Source of the DNA: Methanothrix sp.
GTDB taxonomy: Archaea > Halobacteriota > Methanosarcinia > Methanotrichales > Methanotrichaceae
Length of the DNA stretch: 64,000 nt
Direction: 5' to 3'
NCBI RefSeq assembly: GCF_026419855.1
Contig: NZ_JAOAKP010000001.1
Location: 1 to 64,000, forward strand
Shown: positions 47,814-56,268 of the stretch, piece by piece
Numbering within the stretch: the first letter of the stretch is position 1
Layout of the letters: each line of letters begins with the position of its first letter
Program-made: the position numbers and the translations under genes
Notes under the pieces: model-generated
The model's database searches: none
The model's input: only the letters and a program-made list of their open reading frames with translations
Told to the model about the DNA's origin: nothing

Positions 47814-49226
47814 TCACTTCGGTGGCCAGTAGCTCTTCATCCAGTCGACTATGCGACCCGAGTCCTCTGGTCCCACCAGGATCTTCACCTTTCCGCCGAA
47901 GAGGTCCTCGAGCTCGCCGCTGAACTTCGCAGCCATACCTGGCAGAACGATCGACGGATACTTCATCTTCGTGAGGTCGAAGTCGGCCTCCTTGAACGCA
48001 TCGACGATCTTCTGCGGGTTAAGCTGACCGCCAGCGACCGATGCCTGCACGCCGATACCATCTGTGTTGATGGACATTATGTAGGCATCGATGTTGTTCG
48101 AGGCGACATCTGATTCGACGGTGTAGTACGTGAGGGCGAAGTTCGTTGTGACGAAGACCGGCGACTCATCTGTGGGATTGCCGACCTTGTAGATGCCGGG
48201 CTTGACCTGGACAGGTCTCCTCGGGTCTGTGTAGATGTTGTACCTGAGGTGCATGTCAGGCATCACGCAGTGCGGCTCGATGCAGTGCTTGATCATTATC
48301 GAGGCACCGCGTATGACGAATGTCGCTGTCAGTATAGACTCCCAGTAAGCAGCCCTCACCGGATCCTTTGTGGTGAACCACGCGTTGATCGGCAGCGCGA
48401 TCGTCGGGTACGCGATATCCCTCTGGCCCTCCTCGAGAGCTGCCCTTCTGAGCTTGAGGAGGTTGTGCAGGGACTCCTGCAGCTTCTTGCCGTTGGGCGC
48501 TGTCCCGAAGTCCAGGATGAGATCGTGGATGCCCATCTGCTCGAACGTCAGCGCCATCGACTTGAGACCATCAAGATCGAAGGGCACACTGAGAACAACC
48601 GGCACATTGAACTCGTGGACGAGCTTCGCGACCTCCTGCCAGTTGTCCTTGTTTGCTGCGTACACCAGCGGCCTGGTCTTCGCTGCTACCTCGAGGCCTG
48701 CTCTCAGAACCTTCGGATCGAAGGAGCAGAGAATCATCGGATAGTCCGTGGTCTCCATCACCTTCTTCACGCACGCAGCGAACTTCGCGGGATCGCCGGA
48801 GGTTGACCGGACAGCGATCATCTCCACGCGCTCCCATTTGCCTATGTAGAACTTCTTCCACGTGCTGATCTTCTTCACACGCTCGACGAGAGCAGCCTCG
48901 TCCATCGTATCTGTGACATCATATGCGAATGGTGGCTTGTTGAAGAACGTCATCTGGTGGCGGTACATGACATCCTCGCCGCCGACCTTCAGCTCCTTCT
49001 CACCTGTTCCGATGTAGACAAGCCTTATCTCAGGAGCAACTATCGACTTGAGGGTCTCGTACTTCTTCGCGTACTTTTTATCCTCGACCAGCGGTGTGCA
49101 CTCCTCGACTCGCTTGGATCTGTCGATGAGAGCTGCTGCGAATGCCATGCAGGTCTGCAGCCCGCACTTTCCGCAGTTGGTCTGAGGCAGATGCTTGTAA
49201 AGATTTAGGGGGCTCTTTTCCTTCAT
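47814..49226 (-). CDS. cdhE: ACDS gamma subunit (corrinoid iron-sulfur protein large subunit)
   Basis: Carries the methyl group between tetrahydrosarcinapterin and the A-cluster, on a corrinoid. The N-terminal LPQTNCGKCGLQTCMAFAAALIDRSKRVEEC binds a [4Fe-4S] cluster; the rest is a TIM barrel and a C-terminal corrinoid-binding domain (around FALTYYTVESDVASNNIDAYIMSINTDGIGVQASVAGG). Its 470 residues are normal. It follows cdhD by five bases and is the last gene of the operon. Confidence 0.97.
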   Translation of the reverse strand: MKEKSPLNLYKHLPQTNCGKCGLQTCMAFAAALIDRSKRVEECTPLVEDKKYAKKYETLKSIVAPEIRLVYIGTGEKELKVGGEDVMYRHQMTFFNKPPFAYDVTDTMDEAALVERVKKISTWKKFYIGKWERVEMIAVRSTSGDPAKFAACVKKVMETTDYPMILCSFDPKVLRAGLEVAAKTRPLVYAANKDNWQEVAKLVHEFNVPVVLSVPFDLDGLKSMALTFEQMGIHDLILDFGTAPNGKKLQESLHNLLKLRRAALEEGQRDIAYPTIALPINAWFTTKDPVRAAYWESILTATFVIRGASIMIKHCIEPHCVMPDMHLRYNIYTDPRRPVQVKPGIYKVGNPTDESPVFVTTNFALTYYTVESDVASNNIDAYIMSINTDGIGVQASVAGGQLNPQKIVDAFKEADFDLTKMKYPSIVLPGMAAKFSGELEDLFGGKVKILVGPEDSGRIVDWMKSYWPPK

Positions 49227-49231
49227 CGCTA

Positions 49232-50590
49232 TCAGACCTCCATCTTGACCCAGTTGGTTAAATCAGGAGTCTGCGCATCTATCAGTCCCATGAGAGTCTG
49301 AGTGATCTCCTGGAGGTATGCGACTGCAAGAGGATGCATCATCATGAACAGATCAACGCCTGCCATCGCAAGTGAGAATCCGGTGATGATCTCCCAGATC
49401 GGGCCTCTGAGCATCCTGTCACCCCAGTCCGAGTCCTCCTTGTTGGGGGAGCGGACCATCCAGGCCTCCCTGACGCCCCATGCGTTTGTCGTGCCTGAGG
49501 ACATCGGGAATGTGAGCTCCTCGTCGCCCTTCAGCGCTCCGAGCCTTATGCGCTCCATGTTGGTGTACGCGAAGTCGAGACCGTATGCAAGAGCAGCTGT
49601 TGTCGGATCCATCACTATGGACTCCCTCGGCACGCCGGCGACCTTCATGAGCTTCCTGTTGAGCTCCTTCTGGGAGTTGATCTCGAGCTGCGTCCATGCC
49701 AGGCATACATGACCATTGTCCACGCACGCCCTCCCGATCTTCTCCCAGTCCATGTTCAGGTTGGCGCTTGCGATCAGCGCGCGCTCGCCCTGTGCGACCT
49801 CTGCAGCAGCCTTGAGGACCTCCGGATCCTTATCCGGATTGCCGGAACCACCGATGCATATCGGGACGTCCACTGCCTGGAGAACCTCCTCGACCGTCTT
49901 GGCTGCCTCTCTGGGAGGTGTATCCTTCAGGAGTGGATCTGTGCTTATGAGATGTATAGTGACCAGATCAGCGCCGAACTTTGTGACTGCCTTCTTAGCC
50001 CACTCGCCAGGATCATTGATGACATCCTCGTAGTGCATCTTGACAGCCTTGGCCATTCCGATAGGCATGTCGAAGACGTCCATCGTGACCACTGGCCTGT
50101 GCGGCATCGGCGCATCGTAGAAGAACGGCAGCGCCCGCTCTCCGCCGATCTTGATTGTGTGGCCTCTGCTCCCGCCATCAGCCTTCGTGGCTCCAAGCGT
50201 GACCTCCTGGATCGGATACTTCCAGGTCTCATCTATTCCGACCTGGAACTTCGCCTGGACCAGGCTTGTGGCGACCTTCCACTCCGGGACCTTGGCTGCG
50301 GCCTCAACGACTTCAGCTGGAGCTGGCGATATTGCATGCGCAACTGCAGCAGGCTGGAGCAGAGCATCTACTGGATATCCCATGCTCCTGGCGAACTTGA
50401 CGAGCTGCACTGCGATCTGGGCAATCTCCTGGCCGAAGTAGTATGCGAAGAGCGGCCCTATGCCGGCAGCCCCGGTATCTATCTCGATCTCTATATCGCC
50501 CTCGATGGATACTCCCTCGATGGCCTCAACGCCGTATTGCGCCAAAGTCTTGTTCAGATCTGATAACTTGATCTTCTTCTCCTCTGCCAT
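49232..50590 (-). CDS. cdhD: ACDS delta subunit (corrinoid iron-sulfur protein small subunit)
   Basis: Partner of CdhE in the methyl-carrying subcomplex. The 452-residue TIM-barrel protein has an N-terminal [24 protein letters not shown] and conserved stretches [25 protein letters not shown] and [33 protein letters not shown]. The start at 50590 (MAEEKK) has GGGTGAT at good spacing; an ATG three codons upstream is also in frame. It follows cooC by 12 bases. Confidence 0.97.
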
Positions 50591-50602
50591 ATAAATCACC
50601 CT

Positions 50603-51364
50603 TCAAATACCAAGTGCCTTGACGACATGCTCCTCGATCTCCCTCACCGCGGGCGTATCGTCAGGCAGGTTGATCAATGGGTCTCCCACCAGATCGAAGC
50701 TGGCTAACCTCTCATCATAGGGGATTGTGCCGATAACATTGAGGCTGACTGACCTGGCGTTCTCGATGATCCTCTCCTTGTTACCTTCTGTCACCTTGTT
50801 TGCGATGACGTAGAGGTTATTATACTTAAGGCCCAGCTCCGAGGCCAGCTCTCGTATCCGCTCACCTGTTGTGAGACCACGCCTGGAGGAATCCGTGACC
50901 ACGATCAAAGAGTCAAGATCAGGGATCACCTTCCTGCTGAAGTGCTCCAGACCTGCGGCGGTGTCTATGATTGTGATGTCGTACTGATCTATCAGCCTGT
51001 CCATTATGCCTCTGAGAAGGTTGTTGACAAAACAGTAACATCCTGAGCCCTCGGGTTTGCCCATGACCAGAAGATCGTAGCCATTCTCCTCGACAAGGAT
51101 CTCAAAGATCTTCGCCTCGAAGAGCCTCTCCTTGTCCGTGTCCGGCGGTGTGGTGTATCTGGCTTCCTGCATGAACTCCCTCATGTCGCCAACGGTCTTT
51201 GTAACCTCCACGCCCAGAGCATCTGCAAGGTTCGAATCGGGGTCCGCATCGATCACCAGAACGCGGTATTTCCTGCCGCTCTTGATCAGATACCTGACCA
51301 GAAGAGCGGCAACTGCGGTCTTGCCAGTACCGCCCTTCCCTGTTATCGCTATTACTTTCCCCAA
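50603..51364 (-). CDS. cooC: CooC-type nickel-insertion ATPase
   Basis: A SIMIBI-class ATPase of 253 residues that helps insert nickel into the C-cluster or A-cluster. The deviant Walker A GKGGTGKTAVAALL is at residues 10-23 and the CxC metal motif is in PEGSGCYCFVNNLLR. DTAAGLEHFSRKVIPDLDSLIVVTDSSRRG is the Walker B/switch region. It lies within the cdh operon between the small Ala-rich genes and cdhD, as expected for a maturation factor. Confidence 0.93.
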   Translation of the reverse strand: MGKVIAITGKGGTGKTAVAALLVRYLIKSGRKYRVLVIDADPDSNLADALGVEVTKTVGDMREFMQEARYTTPPDTDKERLFEAKIFEILVEENGYDLLVMGKPEGSGCYCFVNNLLRGIMDRLIDQYDITIIDTAAGLEHFSRKVIPDLDSLIVVTDSSRRGLTTGERIRELASELGLKYNNLYVIANKVTEGNKERIIENARSVSLNVIGTIPYDERLASFDLVGDPLINLPDDTPAVREIEEHVVKALGI

Positions 51365-51377
51365 GATCTAGCCTTCC

Positions 51378-51578
51378 TTACTTCTTCTGCTTGATGACTA
51401 CTTCCTGAATATGTACAGTCGCACCTCTGAGCTCCAGGATTATTCCCTGAGAACCAGATGCAGGCGCAAACATCGATGCAGCAGGTGCGGCAGCCGCAGG
51501 GGCTGCAGCAGCGGGAGCAGCTGCGGGTGCAGCCGCAGGTGCAGCAGCTTCCTTCTTCTTGAGCACTAACTTGGCCAT
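51378..51578 (-). CDS. Small Ala/Pro-rich protein in the ACDS operon, paralogue 2
   Basis: The product of 66 residues has three parts: a basic start MAKLVLKKKE, an Ala/Pro linker of about 35 residues (AAAPAAAPAAAP-type), and a short C-terminal beta-rich tail (IILELRGATVHIQEVVIKQKK). It is clearly paralogous to the neighbour at 51634. GGAGG lies eight bases before the ATG. It sits between the neighbour and cooC, so it is expressed with ACDS. The linker resembles those of swinging-arm or tethering proteins. No known family is recognised; a structural or carrier role is inferred. Confidence 0.75.
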   Translation of the reverse strand: MAKLVLKKKEAAAPAAAPAAAPAAAAPAAAAPAASMFAPASGSQGIILELRGATVHIQEVVIKQKK

Positions 51579-51633
51579 ATCCAAAACCTCCCTCTCAATC
51601 TCCCTCAGCAAAAATATAGAGGAGACAGGTGTT

Positions 51634-51822
51634 CTACTTTGCCAGAACCACCTTGTCTATGGTTATCTTCGCGTCCTTCAGCACCAGCTTTATGCCAGCA
51701 CCGCCGGCCGCGGGCATGGCGAACGCCGGAGCTCCAGCAGGTGCGGCAGCCGCAGGGGCTGCAGCAGCAGGAGCGGCCGCGGGTGCAGCCGCCTCCTTCT
51801 TCTTCAATACCAGCTTGGCCAT
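51634..51822 (-). CDS. Small Ala/Pro-rich protein in the ACDS operon, paralogue 1
   Basis: The product of 62 residues shares MAKLVLKKKEAAAPAAAPAA with the downstream paralogue and ends in IKLVLKDAKITIDKVVLAK, a two-strand motif. The linker is shorter and includes GAPAFAMPAAGGAG. It has a good ribosome-binding site (GGAGG, eight bases). It starts 17 bases after cdhC. The tail could dock on an ACDS subunit. The two genes probably arose by tandem duplication. Their being real is supported by conserved ends, good ribosome-binding sites and operon position. Confidence 0.75.
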   Translation of the reverse strand: MAKLVLKKKEAAAPAAAPAAAAPAAAAPAGAPAFAMPAAGGAGIKLVLKDAKITIDKVVLAK

Positions 51823-51838
51823 TTCAAAATCCTCCAAC

Positions 51839-53248
51839 TCACTCTAGCACGCCATCGGCCTGGAGTGCCTCGACAACCTGCATGAACTGCCCCTCGCTCA
51901 TGAGGAGCTCGTTCTTCACGTTGTCTGTATCGATCTCTCCTCCATACTTCTCGATGAAGGCAATGACCTTCTCCTTGAGCTCGTCCGTGATCTCCTCGAA
52001 CTTCCAGCCCTCAGTGATCTTCTTGCCGTCAACAGGCCTCACAACACCTGTCACGACAGGATGATCGACCTTGAGCAGGAACCTCTTCAGTGACTCGAGG
52101 TCCTTGGCATCGTCCTCGGTGGCGATCTTGTCGTACATCTCCGCAGGTATTCCTTCCTTCACCCTCTCCTTGAGCCTCTTGGACATCCAGACGATCCTGC
52201 GCCAGCCGCCGTCTGCCTGGAGGAACTTCGGGGAGAAGTAGTAGAGAACTCCCATTCCGAGGAAGCCGACGACCTGCTTGCCGCCACCTGTCTGCCCTGC
52301 CATTGTCGAGAACGGCAGGCCATTCGGAGCTGCACCCTTGAAGTCGCGGTCCGCGATCCCTATTCCGTCGACCTCAGGCATGTAGAAGCCGATCGTCTCA
52401 AAGCAGCCGCATGAGGTGTGTGGCGCATCGAAGAATGTGTACAGCTTCATCACCGTGTACTCGCCACCGGACCTCTTCGCAGCCATCTGGTTGATGCTCT
52501 CGTACTCTCCGGCGATCGGATCCTTCAGGCCCTCCTTGGGTATCGGGAACTGCGGGCCCTCGGGGTCGACCTTGGACGCGGCGCGGCCATCGAACCATGT
52601 GATGGCTCCGCAGAGTGATGGTCTATCAGGCGTCACGACACATGCGCTTGTCGGGGCGAACGCCTGGCAGAGTGTGCATCCGTAGAAGACATCCACATCT
52701 TCATCATGGAGGCCCTTCGCCCTCTCGTCCCTCGCCCTGTATACCTGCATCGCCTTCTCCAGCTCCTCCTTGACCTTCGCTGGATCTGTGACGATTGTTA
52801 CCTCCATCTTCTCGATGAAGGGCATCTCAGCCTTGTACAGGCTGATGACAGGTTTGAATATCTGCTCCCAGTACTGGACACCCTTTTTCTGCAGGCTCTT
52901 GCTCATCCTCATCCAGATATCGTACCTCTGGTTGAGGTGCATGAGGCCGCTTATGTATGAAAGCAGAGCGTGGTTGCGCCTCTCTATGATTGACTCCAGG
53001 TCCTTCTCGATCTTCTCGCCGGCGACCTTGAATATCATTCCGAAGGGTATCGTTGAGCCCTCGGGGATATCCTTCGGCTCGGGACCGATGACTGTGACCT
53101 TCCCGTCCTGTACCTCATCCATTGAGGCGGCCAGTGTCAGCTCGAATCCGTCTGCCTTCGGTCCGCCCATCTCTATCCACAGGTCTTCCTTCCTTATGCG
53201 CTCCCCCTCGTACATCGGGGATATGTCCAGTTGAATCTCTTCAGCCAT
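51839..53248 (-). CDS. cdhC: ACDS beta subunit (acetyl-CoA synthase, A-cluster)
   Basis: Makes or cleaves the acetyl-CoA C-C and C-S bonds at the Ni-Ni-[4Fe-4S] A-cluster. Cysteines expected to bind the cluster are in DVFYGCTLCQAFAPTSACVVTPDRPSLCGAITW and APHTSCGCFETIGFY. The 469-residue product is an archaeal-type protein lacking the bacterial N-terminal CODH-contact domain. The C-terminus (ELLMSEGQFMQVVEALQADGVLE) lacks any Ala/Pro-rich tail; such a stretch is instead encoded by the two small genes downstream. Confidence 0.97.
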   Translation of the reverse strand: MAEEIQLDISPMYEGERIRKEDLWIEMGGPKADGFELTLAASMDEVQDGKVTVIGPEPKDIPEGSTIPFGMIFKVAGEKIEKDLESIIERRNHALLSYISGLMHLNQRYDIWMRMSKSLQKKGVQYWEQIFKPVISLYKAEMPFIEKMEVTIVTDPAKVKEELEKAMQVYRARDERAKGLHDEDVDVFYGCTLCQAFAPTSACVVTPDRPSLCGAITWFDGRAASKVDPEGPQFPIPKEGLKDPIAGEYESINQMAAKRSGGEYTVMKLYTFFDAPHTSCGCFETIGFYMPEVDGIGIADRDFKGAAPNGLPFSTMAGQTGGGKQVVGFLGMGVLYYFSPKFLQADGGWRRIVWMSKRLKERVKEGIPAEMYDKIATEDDAKDLESLKRFLLKVDHPVVTGVVRPVDGKKITEGWKFEEITDELKEKVIAFIEKYGGEIDTDNVKNELLMSEGQFMQVVEALQADGVLE

Positions 53249-53296: not shown

Positions 53297-53845
53297 TCAC
53301 TTCTTCAGTATTGCAATCAGCTCATCGATCGCCTCGTGGTATCCCGCAGAGTCGAACGCCAGGTTCCCGAATGTCATATCAGCGTTGACATGGTAATACC
53401 TGTCGATGGATACACGCTTGATGTCCCTGTTAAAGTGCTTCAGCGCGGAGAACATGGCGTTTGCGAACTTGTAGAAGATACCCATGAAGATGACCACATC
53501 GTAGTGTCCCTGTCCATCCAAGCCCTTCCAGTCCTTGAATCGCAGGTAGTTCGTCAGCGGATGCAGGCCGATCTGATAGACGTTTGTCGTGTACCCTCTC
53601 TCGATGAATCCCTTGATCGTGTGAGCAGTCGCTGCAATCGTCATGTTCTTCGCCTTGGCGATCTCTATCGCCTTGTCGAACATGATCGGGTCGTCGAAGA
53701 GCTCAGCTCCCACGACCAGCAGCGGCCTCTTAGCCTTCTTTATGATGGCGCCTATGACCTTTACGGGATAGGCCTTTGCCATCTCAGGCCCCGGGATCTG
53801 GGCCATCTCAAAAGGTATGGGGTTTTTGGTTGTGTCGACTGCCAT
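53297..53845 (-). CDS. cdhB: ACDS epsilon subunit
   Basis: A 182-residue Rossmann-like protein that binds CdhA in the CO dehydrogenase subcomplex. AIIKKAKRPLLVVGAELFDDPIMFDKAIEIAKAKNM is the family signature near the N-terminus. Its likely start ATG 53845 lies seven bases after the cdhA stop; an in-frame GTG at 53854 overlaps the cdhA end. It may bind FAD or assist electron transfer, as proposed for other methanogens. Confidence 0.93.
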   Translation of the reverse strand: MAVDTTKNPIPFEMAQIPGPEMAKAYPVKVIGAIIKKAKRPLLVVGAELFDDPIMFDKAIEIAKAKNMTIAATAHTIKGFIERGYTTNVYQIGLHPLTNYLRFKDWKGLDGQGHYDVVIFMGIFYKFANAMFSALKHFNRDIKRVSIDRYYHVNADMTFGNLAFDSAGYHEAIDELIAILKK

Positions 53846-53850
53846 TTCCC

Positions 53851-56268
53851 TCACTTCCTGACCCTAATCTTCCTCTCGATGTTGGTCGGATCGAAGCTCA
53901 CATCCGCCGGCCTTATCGGACCCTCGACGATCTTCTTCCCCTTCCAGTCGATCTTCCAGCCGTACTTCTCCTCGAGCTCCTTCATCATCTGGTCCTTCCA
54001 GGCGAGCGGAAGCTCAGATGCATGCCTGACATATACCGGCCAGTCATCAGGCAGCTTGCCGAAGTACTTCAGGGATATATCGCAGTAGTGTGTCAGCTTG
54101 ATCATCCTGCCCATGGAGTTGTCGCTCGGCCTGAAGCAGAGCTTGGCCATCATCAGCATGGCCTCCTCCTTTGTCTCCGCAATGTACAGCATATGCTCTG
54201 GAGCCGGCTCGATCCTAACCTTGGAGCCATCCCTCGCGTCGATGACGACCCAGTCCTCAGGCACATCCGTCCTGCCCAGGTACGCCCTGCGGTATATCAC
54301 AGAGTGTGGCTGCACAACAACAGGTATGCCAAGCCTGTTGCAGCCTGTGGCAATTGACGCGGCCTTCTGCGAGTATGGACCCCACGCTACGCCGCATGCT
54401 CCGACCTTGGAGAGGATGTAATCCGCAATATCATCCCAGTTGGCCCTGTGATTTCTGTGGGCGAATATTGTGGCAACCTTGATCGCAGCTCCGGCTATAT
54501 GTGAGTTGGCGACGCATGAGCCCACATTGCATATGTTTCTGCCATCAAAGCCACCTGGGTACTGCTCCCATATGGTCTTGCCCTCCTCGTTCGTATAGAG
54601 GGACATGTCCATTGCCATGCATCCGGAGGTCACAACGATGTATCCGCGGTCGACGAACTCCTTGGCGAGGTCATATGCCTCCTTTGTGCCATTTGGATAG
54701 TTGCTGCATCCGACCAGCGCGATCACACCAGGTATAGTACCAAGCACGATTGGGGCACCCACAGTCCTGATCTCTGTATCCCTTGCTGGACCTCTGCCTG
54801 CTCTCATCTTGAACTTCTGGTTCTTTATGTACTCCCTGTTGGCATACTCATACATCTTGAGTATCGGGATCTCCTGCCTGCAGACCTGCTCGCATCTGCC
54901 ACAGCCAACGCAGACCTCGTACGTGGAGGAGAACGGCTCGAGGTTGCCTTTGGCTGCTTCCTCCATGAGATTGCTTATCCTGATGTGCGGCGGGCAGACG
55001 AAAGCGCACTCGTTGCACTTGGTACAGCTCGAGACCAGCTTCTTGAACTCATCTTCTGTAAGAACGCTTTTAGCCTTAATCTCAGCGCGCTTTGGCTTAA
55101 CAGCGATCGCCGTCTTGACGCCAACCTCACCGGCCTTCATCGGGTCCAGTATAACGACACCAGGCACCCTGAAGTTAACTAGATCATCGACTATCGCATC
55201 GACTGGATCATTCGTCCTGTCCTTCAGACCGTACATTATCTTGTCGGTGGTTGCGATGACCGGGATCTTGCGCTCCTCACAGTCCTTCAGCGTGTCACAC
55301 CACACACACTGCTCATCAACCATCACCACATCCATGATGCCGGCCCTGACCATCTTGCGCCACCATCCGATCGCACCGGCTACCTTTGCCTTGGGTCCGA
55401 GATTCTGCGGCAGAATCGATGGGTTGCCGGCCTCTGTGATCCTCGTCAGATCATGAGCTGTACAGCAGACGCCTCCAATATCAACCTTGTCCCAGAGTTT
55501 ATTGTTCTCTACGTAAACCATCGCCTCGGCACCTGCTGCCAGGTTATGGCCGTATGCGATCAGCACAGCCTTGTTCTGATCGAGGGTCCCCATTCCGATC
55601 TCAACGAGAGGTGCATTCGGATCGCCACGCGGCATATCGTAGGCCACGATCTGGAGCATATCGCATATCTCCATTCCGAGGTGGTCCAGCATTGATGCAT
55701 GCAGTGCCTTGGACTCGAAATCCTCGTAGCTGCCCTCCTGGCCGGTGTGTGTTGCCGCGAGGAGATTTGCAACCTGCTCCTCGATGTATGTCAGACCCTC
55801 TCCAAAGTCCTTCAGTGTTCTGGGCTTCTTGCCGATGATCGTCTGGTATACTGGTGCATCGTAGAGAATATCCGTACCCATATCGAACTTCATATCGCCG
55901 AAGCGGTCCATCACCCAGTGATACAGATGTATTCCATGTGCGGTGTGAGCGCATGTGCCCATCAGGCATGCAATCAGAACTATCTTTCCGCACGTACCCT
56001 CCATGTTTATGCCGCATGCGCCGCGCTTGTTGCCGGTGAGGTCACAAGGACCGTATGTACAGAGTGTACAGGTATCGTCTGCAGGCGCGTAGAATATTTT
56101 ATAACGGTTCAAAATCTTGAAGTCCCAGTCGCGCAGGGTTGCGATCTGCGGCTTCGGGAACGGACCCATCGGCTGGTCCCATTCCTCCTCCTCCTTAACG
56201 ACAGCCCCTATGTTGATCTGGACATTCTTCATGTCCTCAACTGTAAAGCTGCCCTCGAGCTTTGCCAT
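53851..56268 (-). CDS. cdhA: ACDS alpha subunit (nickel-iron CO dehydrogenase)
   Basis: Oxidises the carbonyl of acetyl-CoA to CO2 at the Ni-Fe-S C-cluster. In its 805 residues the N-terminal CTLCTYGPCDLTGNKRGACGI binds the B/D clusters. Two ferredoxin-like motifs (CTKCNECAFVCP and CVGCGRCEQVC, about residues 415-460) are the extra clusters typical of archaeal CdhA. The C-cluster ligands lie in the C-terminal half (VTSGCMAMDM, NVGSCVANSHIAG, KVGACGVAWGPYS). It is the first gene of the operon. Confidence 0.97.
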   Translation of the reverse strand: MAKLEGSFTVEDMKNVQINIGAVVKEEEEWDQPMGPFPKPQIATLRDWDFKILNRYKIFYAPADDTCTLCTYGPCDLTGNKRGACGINMEGTCGKIVLIACLMGTCAHTAHGIHLYHWVMDRFGDMKFDMGTDILYDAPVYQTIIGKKPRTLKDFGEGLTYIEEQVANLLAATHTGQEGSYEDFESKALHASMLDHLGMEICDMLQIVAYDMPRGDPNAPLVEIGMGTLDQNKAVLIAYGHNLAAGAEAMVYVENNKLWDKVDIGGVCCTAHDLTRITEAGNPSILPQNLGPKAKVAGAIGWWRKMVRAGIMDVVMVDEQCVWCDTLKDCEERKIPVIATTDKIMYGLKDRTNDPVDAIVDDLVNFRVPGVVILDPMKAGEVGVKTAIAVKPKRAEIKAKSVLTEDEFKKLVSSCTKCNECAFVCPPHIRISNLMEEAAKGNLEPFSSTYEVCVGCGRCEQVCRQEIPILKMYEYANREYIKNQKFKMRAGRGPARDTEIRTVGAPIVLGTIPGVIALVGCSNYPNGTKEAYDLAKEFVDRGYIVVTSGCMAMDMSLYTNEEGKTIWEQYPGGFDGRNICNVGSCVANSHIAGAAIKVATIFAHRNHRANWDDIADYILSKVGACGVAWGPYSQKAASIATGCNRLGIPVVVQPHSVIYRRAYLGRTDVPEDWVVIDARDGSKVRIEPAPEHMLYIAETKEEAMLMMAKLCFRPSDNSMGRMIKLTHYCDISLKYFGKLPDDWPVYVRHASELPLAWKDQMMKELEEKYGWKIDWKGKKIVEGPIRPADVSFDPTNIERKIRVRK

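Follow-up and report, generated by a model that had tools for sequence, protein, structure and literature searches.

Two small genes of the Methanothrix ACDS operon are best read as a trans-acting version of the CdhC C-terminal extension

Methanothrix is a methane producer that consumes acetate. Much of the world's biological methane comes from microbes whose acetyl-CoA is split by the ACDS complex. The question raised by the locus described here is what two very small genes are doing inside the ACDS operon of a Methanothrix sp., where they stand between cdhC and cooC. An earlier note on this DNA, made from the sequence alone, had suggested that they could be a CdhC tail that became detached and was duplicated. 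In the window (the whole stretch of 64,000 nucleotides that was analysed) the operon lies on the minus strand in the order cdhA-cdhB-cdhC-s1-s2-cooC-cdhD-cdhE, s1 and s2 being the two small genes. The features referred to in this study are listed below, in window coordinates.

51634-51822, minus strand: small gene 1 (s1), 62 aa, MAKLVLKKKE...GIKLVLKDAKITIDKVVLAK, with an anchor strand, an Ala/Pro linker and a type-1 tail
51378-51578, minus strand: small gene 2 (s2), 66 aa, MAKLVLKKKE...GIILELRGATVHIQEVVIKQKK, with the same anchor as s1, an Ala/Pro linker and a type-2 tail
51796-51822, minus strand: s1 anchor MAKLVLKKK, a basic alternating beta-strand that is matched by s2 within the genome
51552-51578, minus strand: s2 anchor MAKLVLKKK, identical in protein to the s1 anchor, with synonymous base differences
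51637-51696, minus strand: s1 tail GIKLVLKDAKITIDKVVLAK, type 1, matching the fused-tail profile
51381-51446, minus strand: s2 tail GIILELRGATVHIQEVVIKQKK, type 2, matching the type-2 profile
51831-51835, minus strand: Shine-Dalgarno GGAGG of s1
51587-51591, minus strand: Shine-Dalgarno GGAGG of s2
51839-53248, minus strand: cdhC (ACS, the beta subunit of ACDS), 469 aa, without a fused tail
51842-52063, minus strand: CdhC residues 396-469, a beta-hairpin (GVVRPVDGKKITEGW) and a winged-helix-like domain, apparently wing-less, the proposed receptor of the anchor
50603-51364, minus strand: cooC-like nickel-insertion ATPase (context)
49232-50590, minus strand: cdhD (context)
47814-49226, minus strand: cdhE (context)
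53297-53854, minus strand: cdhB (context)
53851-56268, minus strand: cdhA (context)

The cooC-like gene has an apparent TTG start (LGKVIAITGKGG...).

Both small frames (62 and 66 residues, with the shared start MAKLVLKKKE) were confirmed, as was the earlier description of a good ribosome-binding site for each, GGAGG being found upstream of s1 and of s2. A Shine-Dalgarno-like motif was present within 20 bases of the start in 33 of 33 small genes (those of the window and of the named loci), against a background of 29%. The expectation that both genes would be conserved across Methanothrix was borne out in 5/5 congeners; moreover, where the cdh operon is intact, almost every Methanotrichaceae genome keeps s1 and s2. 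The apparent exceptions comprised four genomes without any CdhC, three with only cut or secondary CdhC copies, and five further genomes of 56-79% completeness. Across the family the tails are under purifying selection (pN/pS 0.16 for s1 and 0.27 for s2), as are the anchors, and the s1 tail shows zero amino-acid changes inside the genus. Thus, s1 and s2 are conserved genes and not chance frames. Searches of Pfam, NCBIfam and PHROGs with the small proteins returned no named family, and the split small genes were not mentioned in the literature that was searched. In one Methanotrichaceae genus (locus L040 of genome G008, and also L135) only s1 was seen and s2 was apparently absent, so s2 is possibly dispensable.

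The occurrence of the tail was then traced in scans that covered the window's phylum. Among the 60 relatives searched first, matches in the window's own family were free-standing, in open frames of mostly 57-96 aa, and those in a second family (f3) sat inside frames of 466-492 aa, which a reading of the loci identified as the C-terminus of cdhC. When the whole class was scanned, 203 of 238 genomes proved to have the tail motif. In Methanotrichaceae the matches again lay in short frames (about 60-140 aa), as a rule two per genome, and in other families the complete matches among those listed lay in CdhC-sized frames. When the genome of the window was searched with a profile built solely from the CdhC C-termini of other families, the s1 tail was the sole match (E 6.4e-11); s2 did not match this profile in the same whole-genome search. 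A wider tail profile, run against the PDB, gave a single match, to residues 438-469 of Methanosarcina thermophila CdhC (9c0s_E, E 2.8e-15), in line with the comparison to Methanosarcina CdhC that the earlier note had recommended. Additionally, positions 427-460 of NCBIfam TIGR00316 match s1, and s1 carries the tail motif of the CdhC extension, G-[IV]-K-h-x-[LFI]-K-[ND]-A-K-h-x-I. The s2 tail follows the pattern [KR]GA-x-[IV]-x-[IV]-x-E, which is related to type 1 and yet distinct from it. With a type-2 profile made from other families, s2 was the best among 1721 frames of the window (E 4e-4) and s1 the second (0.003). The synteny is exact, cdhA-B-C[tail]-cooC-D-E corresponding to cdhA-B-C-s1-s2-cooC-D-E, and the small genes occupy the place of the fused tail.

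At the level of sequence, these data show that the tail of s1 is homologous to the C-terminal extension of CdhC and that the split is conserved; the fused-tail profile and the match to M. thermophila CdhC identify s1 as a free version of that extension. The proposal of a detached tail is therefore upheld for s1. 'Duplicated' is only roughly right, because the s2 tail is of a related but distinct type. Together, s1 and s2 are best read as a trans-acting, two-copy version of an extension that most archaeal CdhC proteins carry in their own chain. In M. thermophila the extension comprises about 75 residues, was not resolved by cryo-EM, and had its function described as unknown; it was thought likely to help ACS to swing between CODH and CFeSP (PMC11474084, 2024). 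The archaeal extension (TIGR00316 positions 427-460; residues about 398-472 of 9c0s/9c0t; PMC11474084) shares with the small proteins the tail motif, a flexible linker and the place in the operon, whereas s1 and s2 are two separate gene products, each with its own start, stop and ribosome-binding site and with an N-terminal anchor strand. The linker that precedes the tail is rich in Ala/Pro in s1 and s2, and acidic and Met/Pro-rich in CdhC of the Methanosarcina type.

The end of CdhC itself also differs from that of the tail-fused proteins, as Methanothrix CdhC has a winged-helix-like domain where the tail would be. The match of the window's CdhC to TIGR00316 breaks off at position 421 of 460, and that to PRK04456 at position 415 of 464. 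Its last 74 residues form a beta-hairpin with KKITEGW, followed by a three-helix, winged-helix-like domain, and the chain stops at ...LQADGVLE, where the wing would begin. The Methanoliparum homologue of this end domain matched Pfam HTH_24 above the cut-off (E 5e-5). Matches of the domain to PDB sequences were mostly winged-helix proteins and included, weakly, the broken winged helix of CdvB (2xvc, E 0.032); a Foldseek search with the modelled domain likewise returned mainly winged helices, every one at E >0.05 and none individually significant. The earlier statement that CdhC ends here without an Ala/Pro tail was correct, although the domain standing in that place had gone unmentioned. The winged-helix-like, apparently wing-less domain at the end of CdhC is a new observation and goes beyond a mere early stop of the chain.

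A comparison of the tabulated loci showed that a free tail gene goes together with a winged-helix CdhC. Where CdhC carries the winged helix it lacks a fused tail and is followed directly by a free tail gene, and where it lacks the winged helix the tail is fused; the exceptions are L116, which has both in one chain, L144, cut by a contig end, and two secondary winged-helix CdhC copies (L153 and L160) without an adjacent small gene. Among the named loci, the split arrangement was found in Methanothrix, Methanocrinis and Methanoliparia (Ca. Methanoliparum and Ca. Methanolliviera), and further in five other families, in single genomes or second operons: f12, f38 and f23, and the second operons of f21 and f29. 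The idea of a split confined to Methanotrichaceae was consequently dropped, as Methanoliparia and other lineages have it too. The winged helix of L143 and that of L150 were assigned by visual inspection, the local profile having scored poorly or on a partial chain. On a tree of the CdhC core the fused or split state changed at least six times, so the association is not one inherited coincidence. An independent-pairs test could draw on only four informative pairs, all in the direction of the association (4 to 0, p 0.125), which is too few for significance. A Fisher test used hand-entered counts and ignored relatedness, and was given no weight.

Several loci deserve a separate description. Genomes of f21 and f29 contain two cdh operons, one with a fused-tail CdhC and one with a winged-helix CdhC and a free tail gene (compare L141-L143 with L156 and L118). 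The CdhC of L116 (genome G240; 553 aa) combines a winged helix, recognised on visual inspection and also in the phylum scan, an acidic helical linker and a tail in one chain, and is a naturally fused form of the split arrangement. In a genus resembling Methanocrinis/M. harundinacea (g9; L042, L046, L070 and L160), a secondary cdhA-cdhB-(cdhC)-(s1) cluster lies beside HdrE- and HdrD-like genes; the clusters of L046 and L070 are without cdhC, and the start of s1 is broken in L070. These clusters had been considered as a hint of an association with CODH, and no weight is placed on them because the copies are of recent origin and have in part decayed. Finally, in genomes of a family that we guess to be Archaeoglobaceae (f10), in which the tail is fused, cdhC is often directly followed by a frame of 24-51 aa that contains a type-2 tail and little else (about 25-44 aa in the examples noted, among them L117, L151, L152 and L154), and which may be an unannotated small subunit.

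The other end of the small proteins points to a receptor. Nearly all free tail proteins of the lineages with the split open with a basic alternating strand, such as KLVLKKK, KLKLKIKKK or KIKLKKK. In ten Methanotrichaceae genomes, hand-chosen as one per lineage, the similarity of the s1 and s2 anchors was 0.86 within a genome and 0.56 between genomes (permutation p 5e-5). Over ten codons the two window copies show several synonymous differences, and the tails differ as well; a match of the anchors in spite of this is expected if s1 and s2 bind one receptor. The within-genome match thus fits one shared receptor per genome, and an older gene conversion followed by drift could also account for it. 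The anchors carry charges of +2 to +6 and the winged helices of -6 to -19. The sole acidic anchor (L146, family f23; -6) is paired with the least acidic domain (-2, the last 20 residues being +2), a charge swap that comes from this single lineage.

For the tail of the small proteins three short strands were predicted at low confidence, in place of the two strands that had been described earlier. Two AlphaFold2 models, made from in-frame read-through chains at a Methanosaeta locus, place the anchor strand beside the last strand of the winged-helix domain, with a block pLDDT of about 49-59. The pairing was taken from the secondary-structure string rather than from coordinates, and the placement is only suggestive because the artificial tether favours contact. 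For the full CdhC+s1+s2 read-through chain, the shallow alignment led to a poorly modelled catalytic core.

Taken with the association and the anchor data, we favour, as moderately probable, a mechanism in which the anchor completes the broken winged helix of CdhC, and the linker and tail tether CdhC to another part of ACDS. The anchor strand would bind the wing-less winged helix at the end of CdhC and complete its fold, thereby restoring non-covalently a link that is covalent elsewhere in archaea. The tail, reached via the Ala/Pro linker, would dock on another part of ACDS, and CdhC would stay tethered while swinging between CODH (CdhA/B) and the corrinoid protein (CdhD/E). Within this scheme the binding of the anchor to the winged helix is reasonably likely, and the docking target of the tail and the swinging role are more speculative, the latter following what has been suggested in print for the fused extension (PMC11474084). 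A parallel for the first step is Sulfolobus CdvB, whose C-terminal winged helix is broken and binds the E3B motif of CdvA; this motif is said to be capable of completing the fold (PMC12909875). The CdvA E3B/CdvB pair (ESCRT-III; PDB 2xvc; PMC12909875) has a C-terminal winged helix and a partner motif proposed to complete it; however, it is an unrelated complex of cell division, its domain resembles that of CdhC only weakly in sequence (E 0.032), and fold completion in CdhC would be by analogy. On a wider view, the chances seem to us about even that there are two archaeal ACS architectures, one with a covalent tether and one in which small trans-acting proteins insert a beta-strand into a wing-less winged helix of CdhC, which have interconverted several times, and that the second tail protein (about 25 aa in the Archaeoglobaceae-like genomes) is an overlooked ACDS subunit.

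A different use of the tails would be to pair together, as s1 with s2 or by tail-tail beta-sheet oligomerisation, and so to form the core of a multi-megadalton complex instead of docking on CODH or the corrinoid protein. The tails are indeed beta-rich with alternating hydrophobic residues, and two tail types occur together in Methanotrichaceae (both free) and in many f10 genomes (one fused and one tiny, free type-2), which is what partners would lead one to expect. Nevertheless, a single tail type is found in the Methanosarcina-type genomes checked, in Methanoliparia, in f12 and in one Methanotrichaceae genus (L040), and the low-confidence models establish no tail-tail contact; we regard pairing as unlikely, though worth keeping in mind. 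A role of s1 and s2 as maturation or assembly helpers that act with the CooC-like ATPase in nickel insertion into the A-cluster, rather than as permanent subunits, would agree with the small genes adjoining cooC in Methanotrichaceae, Methanoliparia and f12. This role is made less likely by f21, f29 and f23, where cdhD directly follows the small gene with no cooC between them (L141, L142, L143 and L146), and in most archaea of the phylum the tail belongs to the CdhC chain. Metal binding is itself unlikely because Cys is absent from both proteins and the single His is in s2, and on balance a helper function appears improbable.

The Ala/Pro linkers also recall those of acyltransferases and the swinging arms of 2-oxoacid dehydrogenase E2 and biotin carrier proteins, which likewise have a long flexible linker between two small modules, and weak NCBIfam matches might suggest a lipoyl- or biotin-carrier-like family with a bound group. 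In contrast to such arms, s1 and s2 have no carrier domain (neither had a Pfam carrier match) and no recognisable prosthetic-group site, direct reading of the tails revealing no recognisable motif for the attachment of lipoyl or biotin. The tail shares its ancestry with CdhC tails, and the carrier readings were dropped as scarcely credible because the NCBIfam matches cover essentially only the linker. A reading of the frames as chance GC-rich repeats or as an intergenic RNA element, which low-complexity Ala/Pro coding might suggest, is refuted by the purifying selection on tails and anchors, the conserved Shine-Dalgarno motifs and homology that spans families.

The tethering mechanism remains our preferred reading, and what is new in this study is the association of a winged-helix CdhC with a free tail, together with a shared anchor that matches within genomes while the tails differ. 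The CdhC extension has been named a missing piece in the swinging of ACS between its partners (PMC11474084). As a separate protein it can be omitted, titrated, tagged or swapped with the catalytic subunit left untouched, which makes the split lineages a natural route to learning what the CdhC tail does, and the association with a putative winged-helix receptor offers a specific binding test. The finding may also matter for rebuilding Methanothrix-type acetate use in other hosts, because the parts list of the Methanothrix ACDS is likely longer than annotated.
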